Origin: Synechococcus sp. MU1617
Lineage (GTDB): Bacteria > Cyanobacteriota > Cyanobacteriia > PCC-6307 > Cyanobiaceae
Direction of reading: 5' to 3'
Length of the DNA stretch: 64,000 nt
NCBI RefSeq assembly: GCF_020514235.1
Contig: NZ_VTLB01000003.1
Location: 62,001 to 126,000, forward strand
In this document: one piece after another, positions 21,665-37,870 of the stretch
Position numbering within the stretch: position 1 is the first letter of the stretch
Layout: the number at the start of each line of letters is the position of its first letter
The notes under the pieces: model-generated
Seen by the model: only the letters and a program-made list of their open reading frames with translations
Told to the model about the DNA's origin: nothing
Databases searched by the model: none
Program-made: the position numbers and the translations under genes

Positions 21665-22424
21665 GGGACCGTAGCCAGTTCGACAGCTTCAAGCCTGTGC
21701 TGTGGAGTGGATTGATTGCCGGGAGGGGCGCGTTCTGGATCAAGTGGTCGACAGAGACATCGTTATAGAAAAGGCGCACATCGTCGCCATAGATTTGCAT
21801 TGTTTTATTGATCAGAGCTTCGTTGTTGAAGTAACTCTGCAGGCCGCCACGGTCACTTCGCCGTACGTTTTTCTGCGGTAAAGACTCCATCACATTGATG
21901 CCGCGTCTGGCGAGAATGTCGCGCAATTCAGCCCAGTGTTCGTTGATCTGTTCAACGCGTCCTACGAACTTCGGCACGATCTGATTGCCGATGCAAAGCA
22001 ATTGGCTCTGGGGGAGAACGTGAACGTCGTAGTGTTTGAACGGTGTCTCGATCAAGACATCGAGAAAGGCCTCAAACGACATGCCATGGGTGACGCCCAT
22101 GTTCTGCATCGGCAGAGGTGGAGTCTCGATCTCGATCACTTTGTTGTTGTACGCCGCGATCAATCGGTCGAAAGGGTTGCGCACGAAACTGAAACTGAAA
22201 TGACTTCGCCGGTATTTGCGTGCCCGACGCAGGGTGATCAGCTCCGTTTCCTGATTGGTTTCATGTTGCCAAAACTTATCGGATGTTGTTTTTGTGCCTT
22301 TGGGGGGCATTTCGCTGAGCAGCCGGCACAGGGCTGCTTTGATTGAGGAATTCGCCGCCTTGGGAACCCGCCCATAGAGCAGGTTGTGGCGTTTCATCCG
22401 GATGAAGTGATGCGGTTGGGCCAT
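21648..22424 (-). CDS. sulfotransferase, Sulfotransfer_2 type
   Basis: A 258-residue protein with LLYGRVPKAANSSIKAAL as the phosphosulfate loop (about 15-32) and FSFVRNPFDRLIAAYNNK as the 3'-phosphate binding motif (about 77-95). These resemble carbohydrate 2-O- and HNK-1-type sulfotransferases. It is unlike its two neighbours in sequence, so the three may sulfate different positions. It lies three bases after the upstream sulfotransferase gene. Substrate is inferred from context only. Confidence 0.82.
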   Translation of the reverse strand: MAQPHHFIRMKRHNLLYGRVPKAANSSIKAALCRLLSEMPPKGTKTTSDKFWQHETNQETELITLRRARKYRRSHFSFSFVRNPFDRLIAAYNNKVIEIETPPLPMQNMGVTHGMSFEAFLDVLIETPFKHYDVHVLPQSQLLCIGNQIVPKFVGRVEQINEHWAELRDILARRGINVMESLPQKNVRRSDRGGLQSYFNNEALINKTMQIYGDDVRLFYNDVSVDHLIQNAPLPAINPLHSTGLKLSNWLRSHGFGR

Positions 22425-22427
22425 GGA

Positions 22428-23345
22428 TTACGGGCTTTTGGCGAAATTTTTTTCGAGGAATTTGCGAAACAGCTTCCACTCGCTGCGTTTAAAAAGGGGT
22501 CGCGCCTGGATCGCCAGTTCAAGCCCGCGTTCATTCAGGCCCGGATTGGTGGTTTTGTTCAGGTTGGGGTTGTCGGTGTTGGCTTCCATCTGCTGCCTGA
22601 GCCTGTCAGCTTGCTTGGGCAGGGCATGCTTCAGCACGTTCCATAAAAAGGTGCTGGGAGCTTCGGGGTCGCTGGCTTGTTCATAGTCAACGCATACCAC
22701 CTTCAGATCGCGTTTGCTGGCCAGCTCCAAGAGGGATTGTTCCAGTGATTGGGGATCGGTACGGGAGAAATCGGCCGTTTGCCGGAACGTGTCGTAGTGG
22801 CTGGTTTCAGGCGTGTGACGCCCTTCCTTGAGCAGCTGGGTGTGGCAAGAGCGCACGAAGGCCTCATGGCTTCTGCTGGCAAAGAGGATGGTCCAAGTGA
22901 TCGAACGGTGCTCGAGGCTGTCTTCCAGACCAGTGATCAAGCGTTTGGTGCGTGACTTGGCGTAGCGATACAAGCCTGTCTTGCGTTCCTTGTTTGGTGT
23001 TTTTCGGCGGGGTGGATCCGCAAGGCCGCTGCGCAGCGTTCCGAAGATGGCTTCGAACGACAGAACGATGGTGTGGATGGTTTCCGGATGCTCCCCCGCC
23101 AGTTCCATCAGGGTGGTTCTGGTTTCTGATGTCAGGCGTTGGGGCGTTTTGCGATCCAATCGGCCCCACTGCAGGTGACGCCACAACTCTCCGCAACGCT
23201 TTTTGAAGGTGTTCGGCCCGAGGTACAACACACCCTGTTTCAGCAGTAGCTCGCGGTTGGTCTGCAGGTTTCGCTGGATGTAAGTGCTGCCTGTTTTGTG
23301 CAGCCCGCAGTGCAAAACGATCCTGCTCGGTTTGAGCTGACTCAC
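22428..23345 (-). CDS. sulfotransferase-like protein
   Basis: A 305-residue protein opening with RIVLHCGLHKTGSTYIQRNL (about 8-27), a variant phosphosulfate loop found in bacterial sulfotransferase-like proteins. A region WTILFASRSHEAFVRSC (about 151-167) could be the 3'-phosphate site. The middle is rich in Arg and Lys (RRKTPNKERKTGLYRYAKSR). Its ATG overlaps the end of the NeuB-fusion gene by four bases, implying coupled translation. Activity is inferred from motif and context. Confidence 0.72.
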   Translation of the reverse strand: MSQLKPSRIVLHCGLHKTGSTYIQRNLQTNRELLLKQGVLYLGPNTFKKRCGELWRHLQWGRLDRKTPQRLTSETRTTLMELAGEHPETIHTIVLSFEAIFGTLRSGLADPPRRKTPNKERKTGLYRYAKSRTKRLITGLEDSLEHRSITWTILFASRSHEAFVRSCHTQLLKEGRHTPETSHYDTFRQTADFSRTDPQSLEQSLLELASKRDLKVVCVDYEQASDPEAPSTFLWNVLKHALPKQADRLRQQMEANTDNPNLNKTTNPGLNERGLELAIQARPLFKRSEWKLFRKFLEKNFAKSP

Positions 23346-25627
23346 GCGACCTGCTTTTGCGGGCTGGATTCGACACAGCTTTCAAGGCGTTCAAGCGCGA
23401 GCCAGGCGCCTTCCCCGTTGTTTTTGTGGCCCTGCCAGATTTCGGGGATGAAGCTTGCCTTGGGGGAGAGCTGCTCCATCAGGGCAAACAGCTGCACCCA
23501 GTCGATCTCACCATCGTGGATCTGCAGGCCTTCGCCATCAACGCCTTTGGCATCGGCCAGATGCAGGTGTGCCGTGAAGGGAAGGATCGCCTTGAGGAAG
23601 CCGCTGAAGGAGGCGTTGAGGTGCGTGCAGGCGAGCTTGGAATGGGACGCATCCAGGCAGACGCGCATTCCGGTTTCCTCGCAGAATTCCTGGATGAAGG
23701 CGGTGTCGACAAACAGATTGTGATAGCGCTGACCGCCGAAATGCCAGGGGAAGGGGGGCATGGTCTGGGGAATGATCTCCACCTCGCCTGCGGTGTTGAT
23801 CTGCTCAAGGCTGTTGATCAGGCGTTGACGCAGCGGTTGCAACTCCGGACGCTCGAGATGATGGTGCTCGGAGAATCCTCCGACGTTCGTCACCAGCAGT
23901 ACGGGATCGGGGCAGTCGAAACGTCGGCGCAGGTCACGCGAGATGTCGACCACGCGCTGGAGTTCCTCAATCGAATGGAGCCGGTAGTGGTCATCAGCGC
24001 TGCAGAGATCGAGGGTGTGATCGCCGGCAAAGAGTTCGGGGGCATGCACCACCAGGCCGAGCTGCTGTTTTCTCGGCAGTACTTGATCGAGGTCGACCTC
24101 TAGATCCTTGTAGCTGAGATGGATTTCAACGAGGTCGAGATTGCTGGTGACTGCAAAGCTCTCAATGTCGTGGTAGCGGACCGGCAGCCCAAAACGATGG
24201 AGGAACCGATAGTTGCGCGGGGTGGCAGCCGGGGTCTCGAGGTCTGAGGGGAAAAAAAAGTCGCCGGCGGCTTTGCTCACCGGCAGGGTCTTGCCGATGA
24301 GGTCGTCCAGACGGTTGGGCTGCAGTCCTTGCCCCGGGCTTTGGATGCCAACCATCGCCGCGGTGATCTCCGTACCGGCGGGCACGTCGCAGGTGGCGAC
24401 GAGGCTTTTGGCCAGCACTTCGCGGTTCATCATTTCGCCCTGGCTGATGCTGCGTTCGCCGCTGCTGCCCATCGACTCCTCAACACGGCGAATGCCGTGG
24501 ATCATCTGGGCAAATTCATCGGGCAGCAGGCTCACCTTGTGGTCGTTGCCCTCCATGGAGCGATCGAGGGTGATGTGTTTCTCGATCACCACGGCGCCCA
24601 GGGCGGCGGCGGCAATGGGCACTTCGATTCCCCGTTCATGGCCGGAATAGCCCACGGGCGCCTCGGCCAGTTCGCGCAGACGCTCGAGGTAGCGCAGGTT
24701 GACGTCCTTGAAAGGGGTGGGATAGGTGGAATTGCAGTGGAGCAGCACGTAGCCGGCCCCTTCGTTCTGGAGATGGCGAATGCCGGAGCGGATCTCCACT
24801 TCCGAGGCCATGCCGGTGGAGCAGATCAGGGGTTTGCCGGTGGCGGCCAGGCTGGAGAGCAGGGCGTGGTTGGTGAAATCGGCCGATGCCACCTTGAAGC
24901 CTTCCATCCCCCAGCGGTTGAGCTTGTCGAGGCTGGCTTCATCCCAAGGGGTGCAGAGCGGCACCAGACCTTTACTGGCCGCATGGTCAAAGCAGCGGAA
25001 CAACTCGTCGTCGCTGAGCTGAAAGCGCTCGAGCAGATCGAGGGTGTATTGGGTGCCCAGATCGGAGGCCATGTCATTGCTGTCGCCCGCATTGCGGTAC
25101 AGCTGGCTCATGTCCCGCATCTGGAACTTGGCGCAGTCCGCCCCTGCGGCGTGGGCCGCATCGATCAGGTGGAGAGCGGTGTTGAGATCGCCGTTGTGGT
25201 TGTTGCCGATCTCGGCGATCAGGAAGCACGGGGCGTCATCGCCGATGCGGTGGGAGCCGATTTGGAGCCCGTCGGTCGCACGACGGGCCACAGCGACGAT
25301 GCGGCCATGGCTGTCCAGCAGTGGCAGCGCAATGATCCGTGAATTGAGCAGGGCGCTCAGGTCACTGGCGCTGGTGCCTTCGGCAGCCGAGCGGCAGTTG
25401 GCATTCATGGCGGCGGTGACCGGCCGATTCAGGTCGATCTCGCCGCAACCGGCAATCCAGCGGCGGAAGTCGCCGTCGGTGAGAACGCCCTGGAGGATGC
25501 CGCTTTCCGAGACAACGAAGATCAGGCGCGACTGGTTGGCCGTGATCTTGCTGAGCGCCGAAAGGATGCTGTCTTCCGCGAAGACAACGAACTGGGTGAA
25601 ATTTCGCTCAATCAGGATGCCTCTCAC
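23342..25627 (-). CDS. nonulosonate (sialic-acid-family) synthase fused to CBS pair and TIM barrel
   Basis: A 761-residue fusion. Residues about 1-115 are two CBS domains (FVVSESGILQGVLTDGDFRR), likely a nucleotide sensor. About 130-395 is a NeuB-type synthase, which condenses phosphoenolpyruvate with a six-carbon amino sugar to give a nine-carbon acid; it has FLIAEIGNNHNG, GKPLICSTGMA, GYSGHERG and IEKHITLDR. About 410-480 is the SAF/antifreeze-like domain (REVLAKSLVATCDVPAGTEI). About 485-750 is a xylose-isomerase/AP-endonuclease-type barrel (VVHAPELFAGDH, VCLDASHSKLAC, HLHLADAKGVDGEG), which could supply or epimerise a precursor. The exact sugar (Neu5Ac, legionaminic or pseudaminic) cannot be told. 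Confidence 0.88.
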   Translation of the reverse strand: MRGILIERNFTQFVVFAEDSILSALSKITANQSRLIFVVSESGILQGVLTDGDFRRWIAGCGEIDLNRPVTAAMNANCRSAAEGTSASDLSALLNSRIIALPLLDSHGRIVAVARRATDGLQIGSHRIGDDAPCFLIAEIGNNHNGDLNTALHLIDAAHAAGADCAKFQMRDMSQLYRNAGDSNDMASDLGTQYTLDLLERFQLSDDELFRCFDHAASKGLVPLCTPWDEASLDKLNRWGMEGFKVASADFTNHALLSSLAATGKPLICSTGMASEVEIRSGIRHLQNEGAGYVLLHCNSTYPTPFKDVNLRYLERLRELAEAPVGYSGHERGIEVPIAAAALGAVVIEKHITLDRSMEGNDHKVSLLPDEFAQMIHGIRRVEESMGSSGERSISQGEMMNREVLAKSLVATCDVPAGTEITAAMVGIQSPGQGLQPNRLDDLIGKTLPVSKAAGDFFFPSDLETPAATPRNYRFLHRFGLPVRYHDIESFAVTSNLDLVEIHLSYKDLEVDLDQVLPRKQQLGLVVHAPELFAGDHTLDLCSADDHYRLHSIEELQRVVDISRDLRRRFDCPDPVLLVTNVGGFSEHHHLERPELQPLRQRLINSLEQINTAGEVEIIPQTMPPFPWHFGGQRYHNLFVDTAFIQEFCEETGMRVCLDASHSKLACTHLNASFSGFLKAILPFTAHLHLADAKGVDGEGLQIHDGEIDWVQLFALMEQLSPKASFIPEIWQGHKNNGEGAWLALERLESCVESSPQKQVA

Positions 25628-25666
25628 CGTTCTGTTCGGCCGCCTGGGTTGAGTCCGTTGTTGAAC

Positions 25667-26986
25667 CTACTTCAGATCTCTGTAGGAGATCAGCAGTGCG
25701 ATCTGCCGCAGCAGAGGGTTTGCCTGGCGGACGGCCCAATATCGGCGGGCGACGCCGCGGTGGAGCGGGCGCATTAGGGCCGCCTGGCAGAGCAGCTCTC
25801 GGGCACTTCTCCAATCGCCACTGGCAATGGCGGCTTCTGCTCCCAAACGGAGTTGGTTGAAGCTGGACTGGGCATTGCCCGGATAGCCGATGCTGCTGGG
25901 GAGTGGCTGCGGCTTCTGGTGTTTTTGTTCATTCAGGGCTTCGAGAAGGGCGGCAGGGCTGAATCGTTCCCCGTAGCCCATCCACTCCAGCCAGCCTGGA
26001 TCTGGGGATAGTCCCTCGGCATCAAGGGCATCCAGGTTGGGGATGTCCTCGAGGGAGCGCCACACGCCGCTGCCGGCATAAACATGACCTCCATAGTTCG
26101 GCTGTAGGCCCAGATCGCTGATGGCAATCGCCCGGCAGCCGAAGTCGAGGGCGTCGAAGAAGGCGGTTGAGGACAGGGTTGCCAGCAGCCGGGCCTGCTT
26201 CAACAGCGCCGGCAAGGGGCGATAGTCCAGACGCAGATTGGCTGGAGGCACCCCCAGGGTCTGCTTCAGCGTTGTGCTGATGTGCGTGTCGACGTCATGA
26301 AACGTGGTATCGCCGGGCGCGATGCGGGGTTTGATCAGCACCTCCCAGTTGGGAGAGCGGTTGGCCAGATCGCTGAGCAGGCGCACGAGCCGGGCCCGTT
26401 CGCTGGTCGTTGCAGGCATGATCACTTGCTCGGCAAACACCAGGCGTCGTGGGCGCTCATTCACGGGAAGCACATTCGTGTCGGGAGCGTTGCGCCGCAG
26501 ACCAGTAAGCACGGTGCGCTGTTTTGCAAAAGGGGTTCCAGCCACCAGCTGCTCCAGGGCGTCCTGATCGCGCGGGCCGCTGAGGCAGATCAGGTCGTAG
26601 CCCAGCCGCCAGCTCACCCCCTCGATGAAGTGCTCCAGCACCACGCCATTGAAACCACAGAACAGCAGGGGGCGCTGCAGATCCCGTTGCAGGGCCAGAC
26701 GGATGTCATTGAGCTTGCTGCCCGTCAGGAACACGCCGATGGCGTCAAAGCTCTGCAGCTGCCGATCGCGGAGCAGCCGAGCCAGGCTCTGGTGGCGCAG
26801 GGTGGCCCGCTGGGCCAGGCGTTGCAGCAATGCCTGGGGTGTTCCATCCCGTGGAATCACGTTGATGCTCCACTCCACGTTCAGCGCAGTTGGGGCGCTG
26901 CAGAGGGCTTCACAGGCCAGCAGTTGGCTGTCACTGTCGGCGATCAACAGCAGCTTCAGCGTGGGTCTGGTCGGAGTCGCTGTCAT
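25667..26986 (-). CDS. putative glycosyltransferase, DUF6716-like (paralogue 3)
   Basis: A 439-residue protein with a GT-B-like layout. The first half holds LLLIADSDSQLLACEAL and FDAIGVFLTGSK; the second has LVFAEQVIMPAT and the conserved TLSSTAFFDALDFGCRAIAI followed by SDLG and GGHVYAGSG. The same serine-rich motif and glycine-rich follow-up occur in the two genes upstream. The family is, from memory, close to the DUF6716 putative glycosyltransferases. Its ATG overlaps the preceding stop (ATGA). Likely adds a nonulosonate or neighbouring sugar; unproven. Confidence 0.6.
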   Translation of the reverse strand: MTATPTRPTLKLLLIADSDSQLLACEALCSAPTALNVEWSINVIPRDGTPQALLQRLAQRATLRHQSLARLLRDRQLQSFDAIGVFLTGSKLNDIRLALQRDLQRPLLFCGFNGVVLEHFIEGVSWRLGYDLICLSGPRDQDALEQLVAGTPFAKQRTVLTGLRRNAPDTNVLPVNERPRRLVFAEQVIMPATTSERARLVRLLSDLANRSPNWEVLIKPRIAPGDTTFHDVDTHISTTLKQTLGVPPANLRLDYRPLPALLKQARLLATLSSTAFFDALDFGCRAIAISDLGLQPNYGGHVYAGSGVWRSLEDIPNLDALDAEGLSPDPGWLEWMGYGERFSPAALLEALNEQKHQKPQPLPSSIGYPGNAQSSFNQLRLGAEAAIASGDWRSARELLCQAALMRPLHRGVARRYWAVRQANPLLRQIALLISYRDLK

Positions 26987-28008
26987 CGCTCCTCCTGGCG
27001 GGTCTTCGCATGCAGGGCTTCGATCAGGCGCTCCGGCCCGTCGGCGATGTCAGCCCCGATGCCATTAAGCCAGGCCTGGTTCACCTTGGGCAGTTCAGTG
27101 ATGGCATCGAGATGGGGGATGCTGCGCAGGCGATGCATGGCACCACAGCCGAAGAACCCCGTTGTGCTCTGTTCATCGTGGATGCCGTAGTCGCCCACGA
27201 TGATCGGGATGCGTCCCCAGGCCATTGCTGCCAGGCTCCAGGGCGAGCTCACCGTCAGGCAGGCGGTACAGGATCCCAGCAGCGGCAGCAGCTGTCCTGG
27301 GGCTGCTTCCACAAGGTTGTCCGCTGGGGGGACGTCGCTGGGCATCAGCGCCGTCGAGCTCCAGCCGTGATCGCGTTGCAGCATCACGGTCCAGTTCGGT
27401 CGCTGCCGCGCCCAGTTGTAGAGAACGCGGAGTAGTTGATCACGGGCTCCGATGTGGGTGGGGATCCGCTCCTGGATCAAGGCCAGGAGCAGGGGCTGCT
27501 TGGCGGGGGTACAGGGCGCGGCCTGGGGGAACCAGAAGCCGGTGCTGATCACGGTCGGCACTGCGAGGCTGGCGGGCCAGTTGAAGGTGAGGGATTGAAG
27601 CTGTCGGAGCTGGTGTTCGCCGCTCACCAGCAGCACATCACAGTCCAGGCGCAGACTGAGATCACGAATCAGGGCATCCCCCACCAGTGGCACCAGGGGA
27701 CCGCTGAAAAGTGTCGCTGCGGGCAGACCGCGGGCGCTGCAAAGCCCTCGATATCTCTTGATGAAGTACCGAACCTGTTCTGGGTTCTGCAGGAACAGGC
27801 CGATGGCTGACACCTGGTCCAAAAGGGGGTGTACAGCCAGTTGTTCAAGGTCGATGCTCAGCTGTGGTGCCGGTGTGGCAAGGGGCTGGTGTCCCTGGAG
27901 TGGTGGCCCTGCGGTGATGCAGCGCTGACCATGCTGTTCCAGCGCATCGGCCATCAGCAAGCAGGCGCAACGCTCCAGGCCTCCGTCGCTGAACAGCAGC
28001 AGGGTCAT
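26983..28008 (-). CDS. putative glycosyltransferase, DUF6716-like (paralogue 2)
   Basis: A 341-residue protein of the same family as its two neighbours, shorter in the tail. It opens MTLLLFSDGGLERCACLLMA, has QPLLLALIQERIP in the middle, and carries the family motif CLTVSSPWSLAAMAWGRIPI with VGDYG and TGFFGCGAM. Overlaps of four bases at both ends show tight coupling. It probably uses an activated sugar in the cytoplasm. Function is by analogy only. Confidence 0.58.
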   Translation of the reverse strand: MTLLLFSDGGLERCACLLMADALEQHGQRCITAGPPLQGHQPLATPAPQLSIDLEQLAVHPLLDQVSAIGLFLQNPEQVRYFIKRYRGLCSARGLPAATLFSGPLVPLVGDALIRDLSLRLDCDVLLVSGEHQLRQLQSLTFNWPASLAVPTVISTGFWFPQAAPCTPAKQPLLLALIQERIPTHIGARDQLLRVLYNWARQRPNWTVMLQRDHGWSSTALMPSDVPPADNLVEAAPGQLLPLLGSCTACLTVSSPWSLAAMAWGRIPIIVGDYGIHDEQSTTGFFGCGAMHRLRSIPHLDAITELPKVNQAWLNGIGADIADGPERLIEALHAKTRQEER

Positions 28009-29336
28009 CGTTCCCGCAACAGTTTTGAAAGCCAGCCGAATCCCACCACGCCATCGCGCATGCTGCGCAGTATGCGGCGGGTGCGGTGACGTTTGCGCTG
28101 GCTGGATCGGGCTCCACCACTGCTCAACATCCGCCGCCCCCCGTTGCTCAGCGCGGCTTTCTGCCAGGCACTGCTGCCCCAGCTCAGGGGGCCATGGTTG
28201 GCGGCACCGAGAGGTGCGGCTGGGTTGTTCAGTCGGTCCACCAACGCCGTGATGAAGCGATCCTCACCGTCGCGCTGCAAACCTTGCTGCTCGAGCCAAT
28301 GAGCGTCATGGATCACCTCGAAGGGGTTGGCCTTGATCGCTGCGAAGTTGGCGATGGCTCCTGAACTGGCGAAAAAGTGGTTGCCGAGGGTTTCGGTGAC
28401 CCCCAGATCGCCCACAATTCGGGTGCTGATGCCCATCGCCATGGATTCCATGGCGGCCGTTGACGAGACGGTGATGGCGCAACCGCACTGGCGCAGCAGT
28501 CGGGTGGCGGGCTTGAAACTCAGCCGGAGATTTGGCTGGTCGCGGGTCATCTTGTCGATCACGCTTGCCATCTCCCCATGGCGCCGATGCAGGGTGCTCT
28601 CGATGCTCGACGTTCGCGGTTTGAAGATCACGGGGTGATCGGGCCAGGCCTCCGCCAGCTCTTTGATCTGATCACAGAGGAACCTGCGCTGCAGTGGATG
28701 CACCGGAATTGAAGGTTGTTCGAAGAACACGATCGAGGGGTTCTCCGGAGCTGACGAGCGCGGTTTGGTCTGCCAAAGAATCGGCAGACCCGTCACCATG
28801 GCATTGCTGCTATCGAGGCCTAAGGCTTTGCGGCCACGGCCATACAGCGCCAGATCATCAGCACTGTTGAGGCAGAGCAGGTCGGCGCCCGATCGATCCA
28901 TCATTCCTTCGAGGCCGAAGCGAAACAGGATCCCCGGGTAAGCGCTGATCAGGCGTGGGCGTTGGTCTTGATCGGCCCAAATGGTTTTCAGCTGCAGCAG
29001 CGCATCACGGCTGCGTTGGCCATCCAGACCCAGAATCAGGGCGTCGACATTCCCCGCCATGGCGCCACAGAGCTGGCGCAGATCGTTCCAGTTGTGCTTC
29101 TCGATGCGGGTCTTGGGGTCGATCCGCCGAATTTCCAGGCGCTGCCGCCGGGAGAGGGCCCGGTTGTTCAGCTCCAGCAGCAGCAGTGTGGTCTCCGCGC
29201 CTTCCCGCCGGCAGGCCGCCAGCATGGTCATCGCCAGCTTGCCGAAGGAGTCGAAGCAGGCGACGGCGGTCACCTTGCGACCGACGAGGCGCTTGGATTC
29301 TGCGGGCGCCATCGACTCCGAAACCTTGCTGGGCAA
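28005..29336 (-). CDS. putative glycosyltransferase, DUF6716-like (paralogue 1)
   Basis: A 443-residue member of the same family. Its core has PSIVFFEQPSIPVHP, HPVIFKPRTSS and the motif CAITVSSTAAMESMAMGIST followed by VGDLGVTETLGNHFFASSG. The SST-E arrangement is like the sugar-nucleotide site of capsule glycosyltransferases and sialyl- or poly-alpha-2,8-type enzymes. A basic, Arg-rich C-terminal tail (about 385-425) may contact the membrane. It lies two bases after neuA. Confidence 0.6.
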   Translation of the reverse strand: MPSKVSESMAPAESKRLVGRKVTAVACFDSFGKLAMTMLAACRREGAETTLLLLELNNRALSRRQRLEIRRIDPKTRIEKHNWNDLRQLCGAMAGNVDALILGLDGQRSRDALLQLKTIWADQDQRPRLISAYPGILFRFGLEGMMDRSGADLLCLNSADDLALYGRGRKALGLDSSNAMVTGLPILWQTKPRSSAPENPSIVFFEQPSIPVHPLQRRFLCDQIKELAEAWPDHPVIFKPRTSSIESTLHRRHGEMASVIDKMTRDQPNLRLSFKPATRLLRQCGCAITVSSTAAMESMAMGISTRIVGDLGVTETLGNHFFASSGAIANFAAIKANPFEVIHDAHWLEQQGLQRDGEDRFITALVDRLNNPAAPLGAANHGPLSWGSSAWQKAALSNGGRRMLSSGGARSSQRKRHRTRRILRSMRDGVVGFGWLSKLLRER

Positions 29337-29338
29337 AA

Positions 29339-30019
29339 TTACTCGCCTTTCTGGGCCGCGATGCTGCGGCAGAGGGCCAGATCCTCCGGCGTGTCGATTT
29401 CTGGCCCTACGTCGTGCAGCACCACTGGGCTGGTTGGCGGGCAGAAGCGGCTGCCACAGCCCCTGAAGGCCGTGACGCCCATGGCGTAGATCGCGCCGGT
29501 TTCCAGAAAAGCCGGTTCCAGGTCCTGACGGCGTTGGCGTGGCAACTCAGGGTTGTGGTTAATGCCTCGCCCATCGGCCCGCCAGAGGAAGCCGTGCCAG
29601 GGGCTGACAGAGAAGCTGCTGTTGCAGCCTTCTTGCTTCAGTGCGGCCAGCACCGCATCGATCTGGACCCCGGTGGTGAAGGGGGAGGTGCATTGCAAGA
29701 ACACCAGCTCAGCTTCGAGGGGGCCCTGCTCTTCCAGCATGTCGAGGGCATGCAGCAGCGCCGATTCCGAACTGGCCTTGTCGCCGGCGATGGCTGCTGG
29801 GCGACGAATCACGATGGCGCCTTCGGCTTCGGCGGCGGCCGCGATGGCGTCATCGTCAGTGCTCACCACCACTCGGCCCACACCGTTGCTGGCTTGAGCG
29901 GCACGGATGCTGCGGCAGACCAGGGGCACATTGCCCACTGTTTGCAGGTTTTTGCCTGGAATGCCTTTCGAGCCACCGCGGGCGGGGATCAGGGCCAGCG
30001 CGCCACGGGGGACTGCCAT
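29339..30019 (-). CDS. neuA: CMP-N-acylneuraminate (nonulosonate) cytidylyltransferase
   Basis: Activates a nonulosonic acid with CTP to give the CMP-sugar used by glycosyltransferases. The 226-residue protein has LALIPARGGSKGIPGKNLQT at the N-terminus, the nucleotide-binding signature of this family, then VVVSTDDDAIAAAAEAEGA and FLQCTSPF. The open frame runs further upstream, but ATG 30019 gives the correct family start. It heads the eight-gene minus-strand operon, and its start is only about 30 bases from the divergent kpsC start, so the two promoters must overlap. Confidence 0.9.
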   Translation of the reverse strand: MAVPRGALALIPARGGSKGIPGKNLQTVGNVPLVCRSIRAAQASNGVGRVVVSTDDDAIAAAAEAEGAIVIRRPAAIAGDKASSESALLHALDMLEEQGPLEAELVFLQCTSPFTTGVQIDAVLAALKQEGCNSSFSVSPWHGFLWRADGRGINHNPELPRQRRQDLEPAFLETGAIYAMGVTAFRGCGSRFCPPTSPVVLHDVGPEIDTPEDLALCRSIAAQKGE

Positions 30020-30051
30020 CGGTGAGGATTCAGTGCGACCTGTCTTACCCG

Positions 30052-32049
30052 ATGACCAGGCCTGCTGCTCTGAGGCTCGGGGTTCCGACCCGGGGGATGC
30101 TGACGCACCGCACACTGGCGCAGCTGCTGGCACCGGACCGTTTGGTGCCGGGTCGCCGCCGCGATGTGGACGTGCTGTTGGCGTGGGGGAGGCGACCCAG
30201 TGCGCTGTGGGTGGAGCGCCTAGCTCAACGGTGGGATCTGCCGGTGTGGCATCTCGAGGATGGTCTGCTGCGCTCGTTGGCCAAGGGCCGGGAGCATCCA
30301 CCGCTTGCTTTGTTGGTGGATGAGCTGGGGGTGCATTTCGATGCAACCGTCCCCAGCAGGATGGAGCAGCTGATCGCAGCGCCGATCACGGTGGCTCAGG
30401 CCAACAGGGCTCGCGCGTTGCAAAGGCTCTGGTGCGATCAGCGGCTCAGCAAAGTGAACCCCCCGCTGGAGGCGGAGGCACCGCAGGAGCCCTACGTGCT
30501 GGTGGTGGATCAATCCGCTGGGGATCGATCGATTGCACTTGGCTTGGCCGATGCCAGCTGTTTTCAGCGGATGCTTCAGGCCGCCTTGGAAGACCATCCC
30601 GAGTGCACGGTGGTGCTGAAGGTGCATCCGGATGTGATCTCTGGCCGGGCCAGGGGGCATTTCAGCGCGAAAAATCTGGATCAACCCCGCGTTCGCCTCA
30701 GTGCGGACGGCTGCCATCCGGCTCGGCTGCTTGAGCGGGCCCGGGCGGTGTATGTGGTCACGTCCCAGATGGGTTTTGAAGCTTTGCTTTGGGGTCGCCC
30801 GGTGCACTGTTTCGGGATGCCGTTCTATGGCGGCTGGGGGCTGACCCACGACCAATGCGAGGCCCCGATTCGGCGACGCCAGGGCGCCAGCCTTGAGGCT
30901 TTGGTGCATGCCGCCCTTGTCGGGGCCTGCCGCTGCATCGACCCCCATGGGCATCAGGCCTGCAGCATTGAAGTCTTGATGGATGCGATCGGCTTGCAGC
31001 GGCGCCTTCAGACGCAACAGCCCCGGAGGTGTGTGGCCTTCGGCTTTACCCCCTGGAAACAGCGCAATCTGCGCCGCTTTTTAGCGGGCAGTCAGCTGCG
31101 GTTTCGCGCCCCATGGCGGCGGATTCCGCGAGGTGCTGATGCTGTGGTGGTTTGGGGGCGCCGCGCCAAACCGCGTCTGCTTGAGGCCGCGGCGCGCCGG
31201 CAACTGCCGGTGCTGCAGGTGGAGGACGGTTTCCTGCGTTCGGTCGGACTCGGGGCTGATCTGGTGGATCCGGTGTCCTGGGTGGTGGATCAGCAGGGCG
31301 TCTATTACGACGCCACCAGGCCCAGCGATCTGGAAACGCTCCTGGCGACGCAGCAGTGGACGTCGGCTCAATGCCAGAGGGCAGCGGCGTTGCGTCAGCG
31401 GTTGGTGCAAGAGGCGATCACCAAATACAACCTCCAGGCGGAAGCTTGGATTCGTCCTGCTGGACAGCGCCGGGTGGTGATGGTGATCGGTCAGGTGGAA
31501 AGCGATGCCTCGATCCGCTACGGCGCCCCTGGCCTGCGAACCAACAGGGCTTTGTTGGAAGCGGTGCGGGCGGCGGAGCCTCAGGCCTACCTGGTGTACA
31601 AACCTCATCCTGATGTTGTGGCAGGTCTCTGCAGTGCCGGCGCCGGCGAGGACGCCGCCGCTCAGCTCTGCGATGAAGTGCTGCCGCAAGGGTCGATCCA
31701 GCAGCTGTTTACCCAGATCGATGCCCTGCACGTGCTCACATCCCTGGCAGGGTTTGAGGCGTTGTTGCGTGGCGTTGAGGTGCATTGCTGGGGCCTGCCG
31801 TTCTATGCCGGCTGGGGCCTGACCCACGACCGCGAGCGTTGCGACCGTCGTCAGCGGCAGCTGTCGCTGGATGAGCTGGTCCATGCCGCCCTGATCGACT
31901 ATCCCCGTTACGTCAGCCGCGATAGCGGCTGGTTCATCACCGCTGAGCAGGCCATCGACGAGCTGGTGGCTTGGCGTGCCGCTCCTCCACAGCGCCGCAC
32001 GCTTGTGCAGGCCCTGTTCCGCCACTGGGGACGGCTTCGCCGCCGTTGA
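30052..32049 (+). CDS. kpsC: KpsC-like capsule glycosyltransferase (two modules)
   Basis: KpsC is a retaining beta-Kdo transferase that, with KpsS, builds the Kdo linker on a lipid at the start of ABC-exported capsules. Two similar halves are visible, each with a WHLEDGLLRS/LQVEDGFLRS type motif, a KVHPDV/KPHPDV motif, and CFGMPFYGGWGLTHD (about 260) or CWGLPFYAGWGLTHD (about 595). Full KpsC proteins have exactly this duplication. ATG 30052 is preferred; GTG 30022 would add ten residues. Whether the sugar is Kdo or a nonulosonate is not shown. Confidence 0.88.
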   Translation: MTRPAALRLGVPTRGMLTHRTLAQLLAPDRLVPGRRRDVDVLLAWGRRPSALWVERLAQRWDLPVWHLEDGLLRSLAKGREHPPLALLVDELGVHFDATVPSRMEQLIAAPITVAQANRARALQRLWCDQRLSKVNPPLEAEAPQEPYVLVVDQSAGDRSIALGLADASCFQRMLQAALEDHPECTVVLKVHPDVISGRARGHFSAKNLDQPRVRLSADGCHPARLLERARAVYVVTSQMGFEALLWGRPVHCFGMPFYGGWGLTHDQCEAPIRRRQGASLEALVHAALVGACRCIDPHGHQACSIEVLMDAIGLQRRLQTQQPRRCVAFGFTPWKQRNLRRFLAGSQLRFRAPWRRIPRGADAVVVWGRRAKPRLLEAAARRQLPVLQVEDGFLRSVGLGADLVDPVSWVVDQQGVYYDATRPSDLETLLATQQWTSAQCQRAAALRQRLVQEAITKYNLQAEAWIRPAGQRRVVMVIGQVESDASIRYGAPGLRTNRALLEAVRAAEPQAYLVYKPHPDVVAGLCSAGAGEDAAAQLCDEVLPQGSIQQLFTQIDALHVLTSLAGFEALLRGVEVHCWGLPFYAGWGLTHDRERCDRRQRQLSLDELVHAALIDYPRYVSRDSGWFITAEQAIDELVAWRAAPPQRRTLVQALFRHWGRLRRR

Positions 32050-32140
32050 GCCGTGCCAGGATTTTGTTCATTCATGGGCGGATCGCAGTTTGGGCAGGGG
32101 ACGGGCGCCAGCTCTCGTACAGGTACGAATCGAGGGGCCG

Positions 32141-34108
32141 GTGCTGCTTTTGATGGGCCCCATCGGTCTGTTCTTCGCTCGTTTCAGCCGCTACCTGCAG
32201 GGTTGTGGCATCCCGGTCACCAAGGTGGCGTTCCCCCTGCGGGAATTTGGCTTCCCTGCCGAAGTTTGTGTGCCGTACAGCAAGGGGATGGACTCCTGGC
32301 GTCCCTTCCTTCGTCGGCTGATTGAGGAACGGGGGATTCGCCACATCTTTATGTATGGCGACTTCATCATTCCCCACCGAATCGCCATTGAAGAAGCTCG
32401 CAACTTCGGGGTTGAGGCCTGGGTGTTTGAGCTGGGTTATCTGCGCCCGAACTACGTGACTCTTGAGCGGGATCGGGTCAATGCCCGCTCCAACCTCAAC
32501 AAGCCAGCAGCTTTTTATCAGGAACTGCCCCCCTGCGACCAGCTGCCCCAGAACATCGTGCTGGATCCCGGTTGGCGATGGCGCAAGGCCTGGAAGGCAC
32601 CGACCTTCATTCAGCACGCCTTCACCCGCTACCCGATCATCGAGGGTGAGCACAAACTTCAGCCCTCGCCAGGGTTTCTCTGGTGCCAAGTGCGTGGCAC
32701 CTGGCGCTACTGGCTCTACCGCTGGCAGGAAAAAGCGGTGAAGCAGCGGTTGCTCGAACACTGCTCGTTCTTTTTGGCGGTTCTGCAGGTTTCCAGTGAT
32801 TCCCAGATTCAGATGGGGTCGCCTTACCGGGGCATGCACGACTTCATCGAAGACGTGATTCGATCCTTCGCTGGCCATGCTCACGCCTCCGACCATCTGG
32901 CTTTCAAGCACCATCCACGGGATCGGGGCTACAACAACTACGCCTTGTTGATCCTGCTGCTCGCCAAGCAATACGGCGTCACTGGCCGGGTGCATTACTT
33001 CCACGACGGCCCCCTCAGCCGCTATCTGCGCACCTGCCGTGGGGTGATCACTGTGAACAGCACCGTCGGGCTGCAGGCCTTGTTCCATGCGGTTCCCACC
33101 AAGACGATGGGGGACACCTTCTACAACCTGGCAGGACTGACGGACCAAAAACCCCTCGACGGGTTTTGGTGCGATCCCCAACCCAGCGATCGAGCCCTCT
33201 TCTATCGCTTCTACAACCATCTGGTGCTCACCACGCAGGTGAATGGCAATTTCGATGGGGATTTCCCTTTTCGCACCACCTTCCCGATCGGTCCGGAAGC
33301 CCGTCAGCTCCCCCCCAGCCCCAGACTGCCGATAAAGCCATCCGGCAGGCTTCGCAATCCCGTGCTGCTGTTGGGGCGGCTGATGGCCCGGTTGGGCTGG
33401 GCCGGTCTGGGTTTCACCCTGTACGGCCTGCAGCTGCCCGCGATCTTGCTTCAGCGACCTGATTGGGCCGCCGCCTTGATGACCATGGCTTCCTCCGTGG
33501 CTTTGCGGGCCCTGGGCATTCAGGTGGTGGTGGATGACAGCCAACCCTCGGAACCGGCTGGCATGCCGCTGGTTCACATCTTTAATCACCGAAGCCCCTG
33601 TGATGGTCTGGTGATCCAGGGGGTTTTGCGCATGCCTGGGCTGACCACGGCGCAATTGCACCTGCGTTGGGTGCTGCCGGGTTACGCCGCCGCCGCGCGC
33701 AATGCCGGCTCCGCGGTGCTGGATCACCGTCAGCCCCAGTCCCGCCTGGCCGGAATGATGAGTGCCTCCACCCTTCTGCGGGACCACGGCGAAATCATGA
33801 TTGCCCCCAACGGTTCGCTGGTGACACCAATCGAGGAGCGGGTGTCTCCGAGTGCCTGGATGTTGGCCCAGCACTATGGCGGTCGTGTGGTGCCGTGGTT
33901 CTTCAGTTACGACGGATTGGAGGGGGCTGTCGGTGCGCGCTACAAACCCCTACCGCTGTTGTTGGGTCGTTTGACGGCACCATTGGGCACGATTCACTGC
34001 CGCCGGGGTCGTGCGGACGACCTCCACCTTCCCGTTGATCCCCGCGACCGTGAGGGATTCAGCGCTGCTGTTCAGCGGTACTACCGGACGCAGAGAGCAC
34101 CAGGCTGA
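32141..34108 (+). CDS. KpsS-like capsule transferase fused to PlsC-type acyltransferase
   Basis: The N-terminal half (to about residue 380) is KpsS-like: VLLLMGPIGLFFARFSRYLQ, FELGYLRPNYVTLE and ITVNSTVGLQALF. KpsS adds the first Kdo residue to a phospholipid acceptor. After a variable linker, a membrane-associated helix leads to a PlsC-type glycerolipid acyltransferase (from about residue 440) with HIFNHRSPCDG, which fits the HX4D catalytic motif, and MIAPNGSL later. The start is uncertain between TTG 32090, GTG 32141 and ATG 32153; GTG 32141 follows a GAGG. The fusion suggests one protein both primes the glycan and builds its lipid. It overlaps the convergent synthase gene by 50 bases. Confidence 0.8.
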   Translation: MLLLMGPIGLFFARFSRYLQGCGIPVTKVAFPLREFGFPAEVCVPYSKGMDSWRPFLRRLIEERGIRHIFMYGDFIIPHRIAIEEARNFGVEAWVFELGYLRPNYVTLERDRVNARSNLNKPAAFYQELPPCDQLPQNIVLDPGWRWRKAWKAPTFIQHAFTRYPIIEGEHKLQPSPGFLWCQVRGTWRYWLYRWQEKAVKQRLLEHCSFFLAVLQVSSDSQIQMGSPYRGMHDFIEDVIRSFAGHAHASDHLAFKHHPRDRGYNNYALLILLLAKQYGVTGRVHYFHDGPLSRYLRTCRGVITVNSTVGLQALFHAVPTKTMGDTFYNLAGLTDQKPLDGFWCDPQPSDRALFYRFYNHLVLTTQVNGNFDGDFPFRTTFPIGPEARQLPPSPRLPIKPSGRLRNPVLLLGRLMARLGWAGLGFTLYGLQLPAILLQRPDWAAALMTMASSVALRALGIQVVVDDSQPSEPAGMPLVHIFNHRSPCDGLVIQGVLRMPGLTTAQLHLRWVLPGYAAAARNAGSAVLDHRQPQSRLAGMMSASTLLRDHGEIMIAPNGSLVTPIEERVSPSAWMLAQHYGGRVVPWFFSYDGLEGAVGARYKPLPLLLGRLTAPLGTIHCRRGRADDLHLPVDPRDREGFSAAVQRYYRTQRAPG

Positions 34109-35339
34109 TGTTGTGACCGCCGAAGCCGAAGGCGTTCTTGAGCATCAACCGTTCGGAGCCTGAGGTCGATAGTGCGACGGGTCCCTGGTTGGTCACGGCG
34201 AGCTCCACCTCGGGGTCGAGGGGGTCGGAATTGATGCTGTGGGGCAGCGCTCCATGCCGCAAGGCCTGCACCCCAAGAATCGCCTCTACAGCTCCAGCGG
34301 CTCCCAGTAGATGGCCGAGCTGGCCCTTGGGGGCGAAGACGGGGATGTGATCGGCGGCAGCACCCAAACTGCGGCGCAATGCCCTTGCTTCGGCAAGGTC
34401 GCCCAGGCTGGTGCCGGTGGCGTGAGCCTGAACGGCGCAGAGATCACCAGGTTCCACCCCGGCCCGTCGCAGGGCATCCTCGATGGCCAGGCTGGCCTGG
34501 GTGCCCTGGGGTTCCGGGGCAACGATGTGATGTCCGTCGCTGCTGCTGCCGCAGGAGAGTTGCCAGCCCAGGGCGGCACCGCTGGGGGTGTCTTCCTCCC
34601 GCATCATCGCCAGAACTCCGGCTCCCTCCGAGAGCACGAACCCGTCCCGGTCTTTGCCGTACGGCCGGGAAGCCTGCTCAGGGGCATCGTTGCGGCAGGA
34701 GAGGGCTCGCATGGCAGAGAAGCCCACGAGGCCCAACCGGTTCACCGGCGCTTCGGTTCCGCCGGCCAAGACAAGATCGACACGCCCATCATTGAGCAGC
34801 ATTTGGGCCAGCATCATGGCTTCGGCTCCTGATGCGCAGGCCGAGACAGGGGTGTGTGCACCCCCATGCAGTCCCAGATCGATGGCAACTTGGCCAGCGG
34901 CCGCGTCGGGGATCAGCATCGGCACGGTAAGGGGGTTGACCCGCGTTGGTCCTCCGGCGGTCAGCTGGTTGTGCTGTTCATGCATCGTGTGGAGTCCGCC
35001 GATGCCGGTGCCGAGTACCACGGCCACCCGGGCTGGATTAATGCCGCCCGTGACCGCGGAGGCCATGGCCCAGGCTTCCCGGGCGGCCAGTACCCCGAGT
35101 TGAGCGCACCGATCGGAGCGCCGCAGCAGTAGAGGTTCTAGGGATGAGATGGCGGCATCGGGAACACAACCCGCAATGCGCACCGATAGATCTTCGCTCC
35201 AGGCTGACCTGAGGGCGCTGATGCCGGAACGGCCCGATAGCACCCCTTCCCAGGTGGAGGAGGCGTTAGAGCCAAGAGGGGATATGGAGCCCCATCCCAC
35301 GATTGAAACCCGCTGGGCGCAACGTTGCCGAACAGCCAC
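34059..35339 (-). CDS. beta-ketoacyl-ACP synthase (FabF-like)
   Basis: A 426-residue condensing enzyme that extends an acyl chain on acyl-carrier protein. The catalytic triad is present: Cys in VSACASGAEAM, His in QAHATGTS and His in FGFGGHN. It differs from a typical housekeeping FabF in lying two bases after its own ACP gene and within a capsule locus, so it probably serves a dedicated chain. Its 3' end overlaps the convergent KpsS-PlsC gene by 50 bases. A polyketide- or KAS II-like role with unusual chain length is possible. Confidence 0.88.
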   Translation of the reverse strand: MAVRQRCAQRVSIVGWGSISPLGSNASSTWEGVLSGRSGISALRSAWSEDLSVRIAGCVPDAAISSLEPLLLRRSDRCAQLGVLAAREAWAMASAVTGGINPARVAVVLGTGIGGLHTMHEQHNQLTAGGPTRVNPLTVPMLIPDAAAGQVAIDLGLHGGAHTPVSACASGAEAMMLAQMLLNDGRVDLVLAGGTEAPVNRLGLVGFSAMRALSCRNDAPEQASRPYGKDRDGFVLSEGAGVLAMMREEDTPSGAALGWQLSCGSSSDGHHIVAPEPQGTQASLAIEDALRRAGVEPGDLCAVQAHATGTSLGDLAEARALRRSLGAAADHIPVFAPKGQLGHLLGAAGAVEAILGVQALRHGALPHSINSDPLDPEVELAVTNQGPVALSTSGSERLMLKNAFGFGGHNISLVLSASGSTAEQQR

Positions 35340-35341
35340 GG

Positions 35342-35626
35342 TTAAGCGGTTTTGGAACTGGGCAGATCGATGTCAAGTGATTCCAGATGGCTCTGGATGT
35401 CACCCACAGTCTTGAACTGCAGCAGCTGCTCCTCCTGGATGCGAATGCCAAAGCAGGTGTCGGCTTCGATCAGAATTTCGTAGAACCCGAGAGAATCGAT
35501 TCCGATGTCTTCCATCAGGCGGGCGTCGGGGGTGATCGTCGCAGGATCGGCGCCGGAAATGCGATGCAGGATTTCGACAAGGCGCTCCTCCAGCTGTTGC
35601 TTATTGGGAGTTCCCTCGGCCAACAC
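35342..35626 (-). CDS. acyl carrier protein
   Basis: A 94-residue acyl carrier protein with the phosphopantetheine site in MEDIGIDSLGFYEILIEA (Ser at about 50). The N-terminus is longer than in fatty-acid ACP and the C-terminus is charged (SHLESLDIDL). It is two bases upstream of the synthase gene and 42 downstream of the N-acyltransferase-like gene. It is unlikely to be the main AcpP because of this setting and its divergent sequence. Confidence 0.88.
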   Translation of the reverse strand: MLAEGTPNKQQLEERLVEILHRISGADPATITPDARLMEDIGIDSLGFYEILIEADTCFGIRIQEEQLLQFKTVGDIQSHLESLDIDLPSSKTA

Positions 35627-35668
35627 CTACATCCTTTTAATCCAGCTAAAGTACCAGTGATACCTCGT

Positions 35669-36610
35669 TTACTTCTCGCCTCGGTACCAGCTGAACTGCT
35701 GGTAGACGGGTTGGTGGTCAACGTCGATAAAGAAGGCGAGACGATCCTTCGGCAGCCGTGAGAGGTCAGCGGCCATCAGAATTTCTGTGATCTGATTGAA
35801 ATCCCGGGCCAAGGAGAGGTCGCAGACTTTGGCTTCCATCAGGTTGAAGTACTGGCGCAACAGCACAGGCAGACGGAAGTCGTCGCTGTGCTCCTGTCGA
35901 ATCGCCACTTCAAGGGCCTGAACATTGCCGATCGGGTGGGTGTTGTCGTCCGGCTGAATGTTGTTGATCGGGTGACGCGGGGACGGCAAGGCGGGGCTCG
36001 TTCTGCGGTACGGAGGCCGCATCAATGCACTGAGGAAGGCCCTGTTGACGGCATCGCTGTAGGCGAAGTGGTTGTAAGAGACCAATCCGTGCAAGATGCT
36101 GAATCCCGAGCGAGCCGCGATCAGGAGTCCTCCGCGGAACAGGGCCATCAAGGAGTGCGGTTGACGCTGAAAGCGTGGGGCCAGGGCGACCCGACCAATT
36201 TCCACGTGTGGGGTTTGCTCCGCCAGCATCGCTTTAATGCCGGGATAGACGTGCTCCAGGTAGGACTGCTGGCTGCCGGGGAGATCCTCAGCTGAAGTGA
36301 ACTGGGGAATGAATTGCAACCGTGCGGATCCGGCCAGTGCACCACTGCTGGGTTCCAGAAGAATCAGATGGTCGTAAGCCTCGTCGCGGCCGTCGAGGTC
36401 GCGGGTGTTGCCCGAGCCGGAGAGCTGTTGACGGTAGGTGGATTCCCGTAGGGTTCCAACCGCATCAGCCACCTCCTCAAATCTTGAGCCGGGGATCAGA
36501 TGCAGCTCAAGACCGTCGAGGCGGAACAACAGGCTGCCAGCTCTGTTGGCTTCACTCCATCCGTGAGGAAGCAGAACGTCATGCTGCGCTGTTGGTCCGG
36601 TCTGCGTCAT
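35669..36610 (-). CDS. OlsB-like (GNAT) N-acyltransferase
   Basis: A 313-residue protein resembling GNAT-fold N-acyltransferases such as OlsB, which move a 3-hydroxyacyl chain from ACP to an amino group (ornithine or glycine lipids). Visible features are TLRESTYRQQL, LAGSARLQFIPQF and HVEIGRVALAPRFQ, then LMALFRGGLLIAARSGF. It also has a separate C-terminal half that may be unrelated. It heads the ACP and synthase operon. The donor would be the neighbouring ACP; the amine acceptor is unknown. An autoinducer synthase is another, less likely, reading. Confidence 0.65.
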   Translation of the reverse strand: MTQTGPTAQHDVLLPHGWSEANRAGSLLFRLDGLELHLIPGSRFEEVADAVGTLRESTYRQQLSGSGNTRDLDGRDEAYDHLILLEPSSGALAGSARLQFIPQFTSAEDLPGSQQSYLEHVYPGIKAMLAEQTPHVEIGRVALAPRFQRQPHSLMALFRGGLLIAARSGFSILHGLVSYNHFAYSDAVNRAFLSALMRPPYRRTSPALPSPRHPINNIQPDDNTHPIGNVQALEVAIRQEHSDDFRLPVLLRQYFNLMEAKVCDLSLARDFNQITEILMAADLSRLPKDRLAFFIDVDHQPVYQQFSWYRGEK

Positions 36611-36679
36611 GGGCCATATGCCTAGACCGCATTATGCGGGAAGATTGGCGTCCATTTGGCTGCTGTCTCAGTTCCATCC

Positions 36680-37870
36680 ATGGTTGTGCCCTCAAGGACC
36701 GGTCTTTCCGCAGCTGTTGCTGCAGCGGTGGTGCTCTCGGCTCCTGTGTTGTCGGCCGGTGGTCTGAAAGCTGAAGAGCGGATCAACTGGCTGAAGACGC
36801 CTGCGGCGGCGGCATCCACCACGCCTCTGCAAGCGCCGCCGCCGTTGCCATCCCCGCCCAGCCTGCCGCCGCAGACCTACCGCTACCGCCTGGCGCCCGG
36901 GGACCGGCTCGTCACTTCGGTGTTCAAGATTGAGGGTTACGAGGCTCAGGTTCAGGTGCTGAGTGATGGCACCGTCAACCTGCCGCGGCTTGGCACGATC
37001 CAAGTGTGGGGCTTGACCCTTGACGAGGCCCGTCAGCGCATCACCGACGGCTACAGCCGCTTCCTGCGTCGGCCCCTCGTCTATGTCGACCTTGTTGAGC
37101 AGCGCCCGGTCCGGGTCACGGTGACGGGAGAGGTCCTTCGCCCCGGTGTTTTCACTCTGCCGGTCAACAGTCAAGGGTCAATTGGTAGCTCTGGCGATGC
37201 GACAGGCGTCGGCGCAGATGGTGGCGGTTGGCCGACCATGATTGATGTGATTCAGAAAGCTGGTGGAATTTCCGCAGCAGGGGATCTGGCCCGCCTGGAA
37301 CTGCTGAGGTCGTCCCCCACTCCTGGTGGGCTCACCCAGAGCTACGTCTTCGATTACCTCACCGTGCTTAAAGACGGAGGTTTTGCACCCAATCCGTTGA
37401 TCTATGACGGCGACAGCATCCGGGTGCACAAGGCAACATCGCCCGTCAATGTGGACCTGTTGACGACTGCAGCCTCCAACTTCGCTCCAACGGCCATCAA
37501 TGTTCAGGTTGTTGGAGAAGTCTTCTCCCCAGGAGTGGTTCAGATTGGATCCAATGATCCGTTGTCCCGCGCGATCCTGGCGTCTGGAGGCGTTACCCGC
37601 CGCGGCAGCGTGAAGCGGGTTGATTTGATCCGTATGGACCGCCAGGGACGCACCACGGTGAAGCAGCTGCGTTACGACCCCAATGCTGTGCTTAGCAGTG
37701 CCAACAACCCGCCGCTGCGCAACGGTGATGTGGTGGTTGTGGACCGCAACACCTTTACGAAGGTCACCGACACGATGAGCGATGCCATGTTGCCTCTCGA
37801 GCCGATCGTCGATGCGGCATCGGTTTACCGTTTGTTGGGTCTGCCGATGCCGTCGAATGGTGGTCGCTGA
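36680..37870 (+). CDS. polysaccharide export protein (Wza-type OPX)
   Basis: Outer-membrane polysaccharide export protein that would form the channel for glycan secretion. A signal peptide-like start (AAVAAAVVLSAPVLSAGG) is followed by a proline-rich stretch, the Poly_export domain YRLAPGDRLVTSVFKIEGYE (about 77-96), and SLBB repeats (VTVTGEVLRPGVFTLPV about 142; VQVVGEVFSPGVVQIG about 280). ATG 36680 gives the signal; TTG 36656 is an alternative. It is divergent from the N-acyltransferase with about 70 bases between. It ends one base before the convergent purB stop. Confidence 0.9.
   Translation: MVVPSRTGLSAAVAAAVVLSAPVLSAGGLKAEERINWLKTPAAAASTTPLQAPPPLPSPPSLPPQTYRYRLAPGDRLVTSVFKIEGYEAQVQVLSDGTVNLPRLGTIQVWGLTLDEARQRITDGYSRFLRRPLVYVDLVEQRPVRVTVTGEVLRPGVFTLPVNSQGSIGSSGDATGVGADGGGWPTMIDVIQKAGGISAAGDLARLELLRSSPTPGGLTQSYVFDYLTVLKDGGFAPNPLIYDGDSIRVHKATSPVNVDLLTTAASNFAPTAINVQVVGEVFSPGVVQIGSNDPLSRAILASGGVTRRGSVKRVDLIRMDRQGRTTVKQLRYDPNAVLSSANNPPLRNGDVVVVDRNTFTKVTDTMSDAMLPLEPIVDAASVYRLLGLPMPSNGGR

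Follow-up and report, generated by a model that had tools for sequence, protein, structure and literature searches.

In group 2 capsules, KpsS and then KpsC place 3-deoxy-D-manno-oct-2-ulosonic acid (Kdo) on (lyso)phosphatidylglycerol (PMC10148158). Conservation of the (lyso)phosphatidylglycerol-poly-Kdo anchor has been described as high (PMC11666461); the Vi antigen is the stated exception (PMC12220298). Aminolipids are made by a route in which a PF13444 N-acyltransferase is followed by a PlsC-like O-acyltransferase of family PF01553 (PMC11631085). Here we describe a capsule locus of Synechococcus sp. MU1617 that encodes a KpsS protein fused to a PlsC-type acyltransferase, next to an operon for an acyl carrier protein (ACP), a FabF-like synthase and a GCN5-related N-acetyltransferase (GNAT). 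It lies in a window of 64,000 nucleotides, the whole stretch of DNA that was analysed, on contig 3 (NZ_VTLB01000003.1) of this 2.3-Mb picocyanobacterial genome of the Synechococcus/Cyanobium group.

Capsule clusters of the kps type have been published for marine Synechococcus (PMC7522525, PMC10119275), and an odd restriction of KpsS and KpsC within cyanobacteria has been remarked on (PMC4594306). A sequence-only reading of this DNA knew of no described system that combines these parts. The kps locus itself has in fact been reported; the lipid arm seems undescribed. The word "acyltransferase" was not found in PMC10119275, and our literature search found no KpsS-PlsC fusion, no GNAT/ACP/FabF set in a Kdo-primed capsule and no capsule aminolipid of Synechococcus, an annotation-level mention in supplements being possible.

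Results

The priming and acyl-lipid genes are arranged as follows.

30022..32049, + strand: KpsC-like dual-module beta-Kdo transferase (four PF05159 stretches; solved KpsC modules match)
32123..34108, + strand: KpsS-PlsC fusion protein, 661 amino acids from a GTG at 32123 (Pfam, hidden Markov model [HMM], fold and residues)
32138..33298, + strand: KpsS (beta-Kdo transferase) domain of the fusion (NF050054, fold, invariant residues)
33353..34105, + strand: PlsC-fold acyltransferase domain of the fusion, HX4D (NHRSPCD) and PNGSL motifs (PF01553, 5kym fold match)
34059..35339, - strand: cluster-specific FabF-like ketosynthase (TIGR03150, 395.8 bits, cut-off 493.75; own clade)
35342..35626, - strand: cluster-specific ACP (PF00550, 6.6e-11; motif GIDSLGFYE)
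35669..36610, - strand: GNAT-fold N-acyltransferase, OlsF/GlsB/OlsB-like (PF13444)

The GTG near 32123 is the start common to the relatives of the fusion; a longer open reading frame (ORF) opens at 31976. GNAT, ACP and FabF are transcribed in that order, 42 and 2 bases apart. The operon is convergent with the fusion gene, whose 3' end overlaps that of the FabF gene by 50 bases. The KpsS-PlsC fusion and the convergent operon that the sequence-only reading had described were thus both confirmed in place.

We determined the distribution of these genes in 196 genomes of the family with a completeness of at least 90%. The GNAT and the fusion were present in the same 36 genomes, with none discordant; one extra row of the fusion search (G175) was a 22-bit match to PlsC only, and the few discordances seen overall came from incomplete genomes. 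KpsC, the fusion and the GNAT occurred together in all 40 loci fetched, and their order was fixed in every locus with room for it. The set is a conserved unit in ocean and freshwater picocyanobacteria, and a chance neighbourhood of capsule and acyl genes was rejected by this synteny and co-occurrence. Neither KpsS nor a full-strength GNAT was found elsewhere among 386 phylum-wide cyanobacterial genomes, a search that gave weak PF13444-like matches (23 to 33 bits) in another family. In a plasmid search with the fusion no record covered 80% of the query, and the listed matches span the KpsS part only.

Some loci showed local peculiarities. KpsC is inverted relative to the fusion, still adjacent to it, in three genomes (L067-L069), and about 1.4 kb of extra DNA, unlike in relatives, separates the two genes at L050:4043-5434. 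A metagenome-assembled contig labelled Bifidobacterium breve (L172) holds cyanobacterial KpsS-PlsC, GNAT and Wza genes and is almost surely misbinned.

Kdo synthesis followed the cluster. KdsA was found in 29 of 29 kps-positive and in none of 12 kps-negative genomes, with contrasts within genera g1, g5 and g9 (nominal Fisher p 1.3e-10, shared ancestry ignored). As marine Synechococcus has a Kdo-free lipopolysaccharide (LPS; PMC4515613) and the lipid A pathway of cyanobacteria is limited to its four early enzymes (PMC3087551), the Kdo of kps-positive genomes most likely serves this capsule. Two genomes, G207 and G140, carry two KdsA copies each.

The transferase modules are well recognizable. 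The C-module of the KpsC-like protein matched solved KpsC 6mgd (2.5e-69) and the N-module was likewise matched, indicating a dual-module KpsC. The fusion matched Capsule_synth (5e-56) and Acyltransferase (7e-7) in Pfam, and both domains lie within one reading frame in all 40 relatives (619 to 675 amino acids). Its KpsS half scored 277.8 bits against the KpsS model NF050054, below the cut-off of 600, and shares 39% identity with capsule proteins encoded on enterobacterial plasmids (residues 7 to 378). Glu103, Asp226 and the KHHPRD motif are invariant in 41 of 41 fusions, the variant STDTQ of L075 retaining the Asp. By motif mapping, Glu103 and Asp226 would be the counterparts of KpsC Glu66 and Asp160, the general base and nucleophile described for that enzyme (PMC10148158). 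A weak DUF6716 match in 25 of 29 fusions hints at kinship with Kdo and sialic acid transferases.

The PlsC half carries PF01553 in 29 of 29 named relatives, its third motif being PNGSL or PSGSL instead of FPEG. Structure prediction of the fusion (mean predicted local distance difference test [pLDDT] 81, with a weak linker at 400-410) recovered both folds: the predicted KpsS half resembles the beta-Kdo transferases WbbB and KpsC (Z 13-15), and the predicted PlsC half superposes on the solved Thermotoga PlsC 5kym (Z 15.2, 226 residues). HX4D is kept in 37 of 41 fusions, and three of the four losses (L039, L042 and L043) adjoin a downstream plsC with an intact NHENPLD; in L045 and L047 both copies, fusion domain and separate plsC, are intact. 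Because of this pattern, ACYLTRANSFERASE of the fusion looks to be under selection and the acyltransferase activity looks needed wherever it is encoded. The concern that the domain lacks catalytic residues was not borne out, and an inactive acyltransferase was rejected for most members.

The GNAT is the sole PF13444 protein of the genome (42.5 bits, cut-off 22.4). It scored 61 of 620 bits against OlsF and 26 of 300 against GlsB, with OlsB below reporting, and it aligns to the C-terminal N-acyltransferase module of OlsF (318-565 of 570). OlsF was the nearest model for all nine members scanned, six of which also matched GlsB and four OlsB. This adds a nuance to the earlier description as an OlsB-like GNAT. 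The structure model (pLDDT 90) matched acyl-homoserine lactone (AHL) synthases (Z 13.8), FeeM (13.1) and generic GNATs (about 12.5), and a PDB sequence search with the GNAT profile gave chance keratin matches only. The class is clear from sequence and model, with the substrate assigned by neither family nor fold.

The FabF-like synthase retains Cys-His-His. It is 39% identical to the housekeeping FabF and falls in a separate clade (split support 0.94-1.00, in a tree without outside outgroup), and housekeeping AcpP and FabF adjoin each other on another contig of the genome. An origin of the cluster ACP and FabF as the housekeeping fatty-acid set, which the earlier reading had named among the findings that would refute it, was thus rejected. 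Both genes are absent from the loci of genus g5 (L071-L074) and from L077, where GNAT and fusion are retained. The cluster ACP and FabF are therefore dedicated but accessory, and housekeeping acyl-ACP would have to serve where they are missing. Four genomes (G187, G250, G268 and G092) have one FabF only.

Two further features flank the lipid genes.

36656..37870, + strand: Wza/KpsD-type outer-membrane polysaccharide export protein (PF02563, 1.6e-18; SLBB)
23342..30346, - strand: glycan block of a NeuB fusion, three DUF6716 glycosyltransferases and a CMP-sugar synthetase (PseF/KdsB-like)

The exporter gene is divergent from the GNAT-ACP-FabF operon. KpsM-like (62.5 bits, cut-off 300) and KpsE-like (155.8 bits, cut-off 437.5) genes lie about 168 kb from the cluster on the same contig (stretch L176 of window genome G000, about 262260-265835). 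The ORF at the KpsT position there (L176:530-1357) had no family match and is without Walker A; KpsT in L071 is normal and adjoins its kps cluster. A degenerate exporter ATPase in the window genome would be odd.

Within the glycan block, 23342-25627 encodes a 761-amino-acid chain with CBS, NeuB, SAF and xylose-isomerase-like TIM barrel domains, and 25667-29336 holds three tandem putative DUF6716 glycosyltransferases, one of them also a weak Capsule_synth match. Two sulfotransferase-family genes and a 305-amino-acid neighbour without family assignment (22428-23345) adjoin the block at 20813-23345, which suggests a sulfated polymer. The NeuB/DUF6716/CMP-sugar block is kept beside the cluster in the Synechococcus/Cyanobium lineage, and it was not detected around the cluster in L070-L077 (stretches up to 19 kb), where KpsC, fusion and GNAT persist. 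As fusion and GNAT remain where ACP and FabF are missing and nonulosonate/DUF6716 genes were not found nearby, the lipid enzymes follow the Kdo primer and not the glycan repeat, which argues against the decoration of a particular glycan.

Discussion

The acyl enzymes are linked to Kdo priming by three lines of evidence: gene fusion, co-occurrence and synteny. The cluster is in effect the sum of the aminolipid route and the KpsS/KpsC priming route, with the joint made covalent, and for this reason we favour an N-acyl, O-acyl lipid that would be primed with Kdo. We regard it as about evenly balanced that the locus encodes the lipid-acceptor arm of a group 2-like, Kdo-primed capsule pathway, in which such a lipid is made and primed in place. 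The GNAT would N-acylate a small head group at its amine with a chain taken from ACP: from the cluster ACP, on which the cluster FabF would set the chain, or from the housekeeping ACP in genomes that lack these two. The PlsC domain would then O-acylate a hydroxyl, so that the lipid would have two chains and probably no phosphorus. KpsS, on the same polypeptide as PlsC, would place the first beta-Kdo on this lipid and KpsC would extend it; the glycan would be built on the Kdo primer and then exported. Our best reading of the acceptor is thus a dedicated aminolipid-like lipid instead of (lyso)phosphatidylglycerol. The head group, the order of acylation and the use of this lipid by KpsS are inferred. 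That the set makes a special lipid, perhaps an N-acyl, O-acyl aminolipid, anchoring the glycan had been suggested earlier; the tie to Kdo priming holds, and the product and its capsule linkage are extrapolated from distant families.

Several observations weigh against this proposal. All GNAT scores are far under the aminolipid equivalog cut-offs (OlsF, 61 of 620), and the fold match is a near tie between AHL synthases, FeeM and generic GNATs. L075 has lost HX4D with no replacement plsC detected nearby. Phosphatidylglycerol exists in cyanobacteria and could still be the acceptor if the role of PlsC were only to re-acylate it. The PlsC domain would then act on lysophosphatidylglycerol or Kdo-lysophosphatidylglycerol, the anchor would be ordinary phosphatidylglycerol, and GNAT, ACP and FabF would make another capsule-associated acyl amide. 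Such a scheme agrees with the (lyso)phosphatidylglycerol acceptor of Escherichia coli KpsS (PMC10148158, PMC11666461) and with the best solved match of the domain, a lysophosphatidic acid acyltransferase PlsC. We nevertheless consider it unlikely: no good genome has the GNAT without the fusion, the GNAT is retained at loci that have lost ACP and FabF, and two other PlsC-family genes are already present in the genome.

Acylation of capsule sugars by the GNAT and the PlsC domain, for instance N-acylation of a nonulosonic acid, would fit the NeuB, CMP-sugar synthetase and sulfotransferase genes that adjoin the cluster, and GNATs often acylate amino sugars. It appears improbable, as GNAT and fusion are kept where no nonulosonate or DUF6716 genes were found within 19 kb, the O-acyltransferase shares one chain with KpsS, an enzyme that works on the lipid end, and the GNAT is closer to aminolipid than to sugar acyltransferases. 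The top fold matches of the GNAT, AHL synthases and FeeM (Z 13-14), would agree with an operon that yields a diffusible N-acyl signal or N-acyl amino acid in the manner of FeeM or LuxI; its strict linkage with capsule genes and the family HMMs, which name only aminolipid enzymes, make this very improbable.

If the aminolipid proposal is true, a fusion coupling the first Kdo transfer to lipid acylation would mean that Kdo-primed capsules can supply their own lipid. Rather tentatively, and with somewhat less than even confidence, we suggest that a phosphorus-free N-acyl, O-acyl aminolipid, made in place by the fusion and its partner GNAT, anchors this capsule, as a third kind of capsule anchor next to (lyso)phosphatidylglycerol-Kdo and the diacyl-HexNAc of Vi, and one that fits the low-phosphate ocean. 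The kps genes of these abundant ocean phototrophs are enriched in low-nitrogen and low-phosphorus waters (PMC10119275), and a phosphorus-free anchor would be a testable reason for the enrichment in low-phosphorus waters. The locus offers a defined set of candidate genes for a putative acyl lipid, and the fusion enzyme a means of working out the acceptor lipid of KpsS.

Comparison with known systems

Like the E. coli group 2 capsule locus, the cluster has a dual-module KpsC, the KpsS catalytic residues, Kdo synthesis and a Wza/KpsD-type exporter; candidate KpsM- and KpsE-like genes, both scoring under their cut-offs, lie outside the cluster. The E. coli system uses (lyso)phosphatidylglycerol as acceptor; in the cluster, KpsS forms one protein with PlsC and is linked to GNAT, ACP and FabF. 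We know of no acyl-lipid genes in the E. coli group 2 locus. The pairing of a PF13444 N-acyltransferase with a PlsC-like O-acyltransferase is shared with OlsB and OlsA, OlsF, and GlsB and GlsA, which make ornithine, glycine or glutamine lipids; in this locus, however, a Kdo transferase forms the other half of the O-acyltransferase protein, the pair is capsule-linked with a dedicated ACP and FabF, and the GNAT scores far under the equivalog cut-offs.

FeeM/FeeL N-acyl amino acid synthase has a similar fold (Z 13.1, against about 12.5 for generic GNATs) and a neighbouring ACP, but the PDB search gave no significant sequence match for the GNAT, and the gene context is different. The Vi capsule of Salmonella Typhi may serve by analogy as the precedent for a dedicated anchor enzyme, since VexE, an ACP-dependent acyltransferase of the lysophospholipid acyltransferase (LPLAT) fold, provides that capsule with its own acyl anchor (PMC9597891). 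The Vi system is without KpsS/KpsC and Kdo and acylates an N-acetylhexosamine (HexNAc), whereas KpsS/KpsC are present here and Kdo priming is kept. The kps clusters published for marine Synechococcus (clades III/WPC1; Syn-eCAG_008/009) very probably represent this capsule locus (PMC7522525, PMC10119275).
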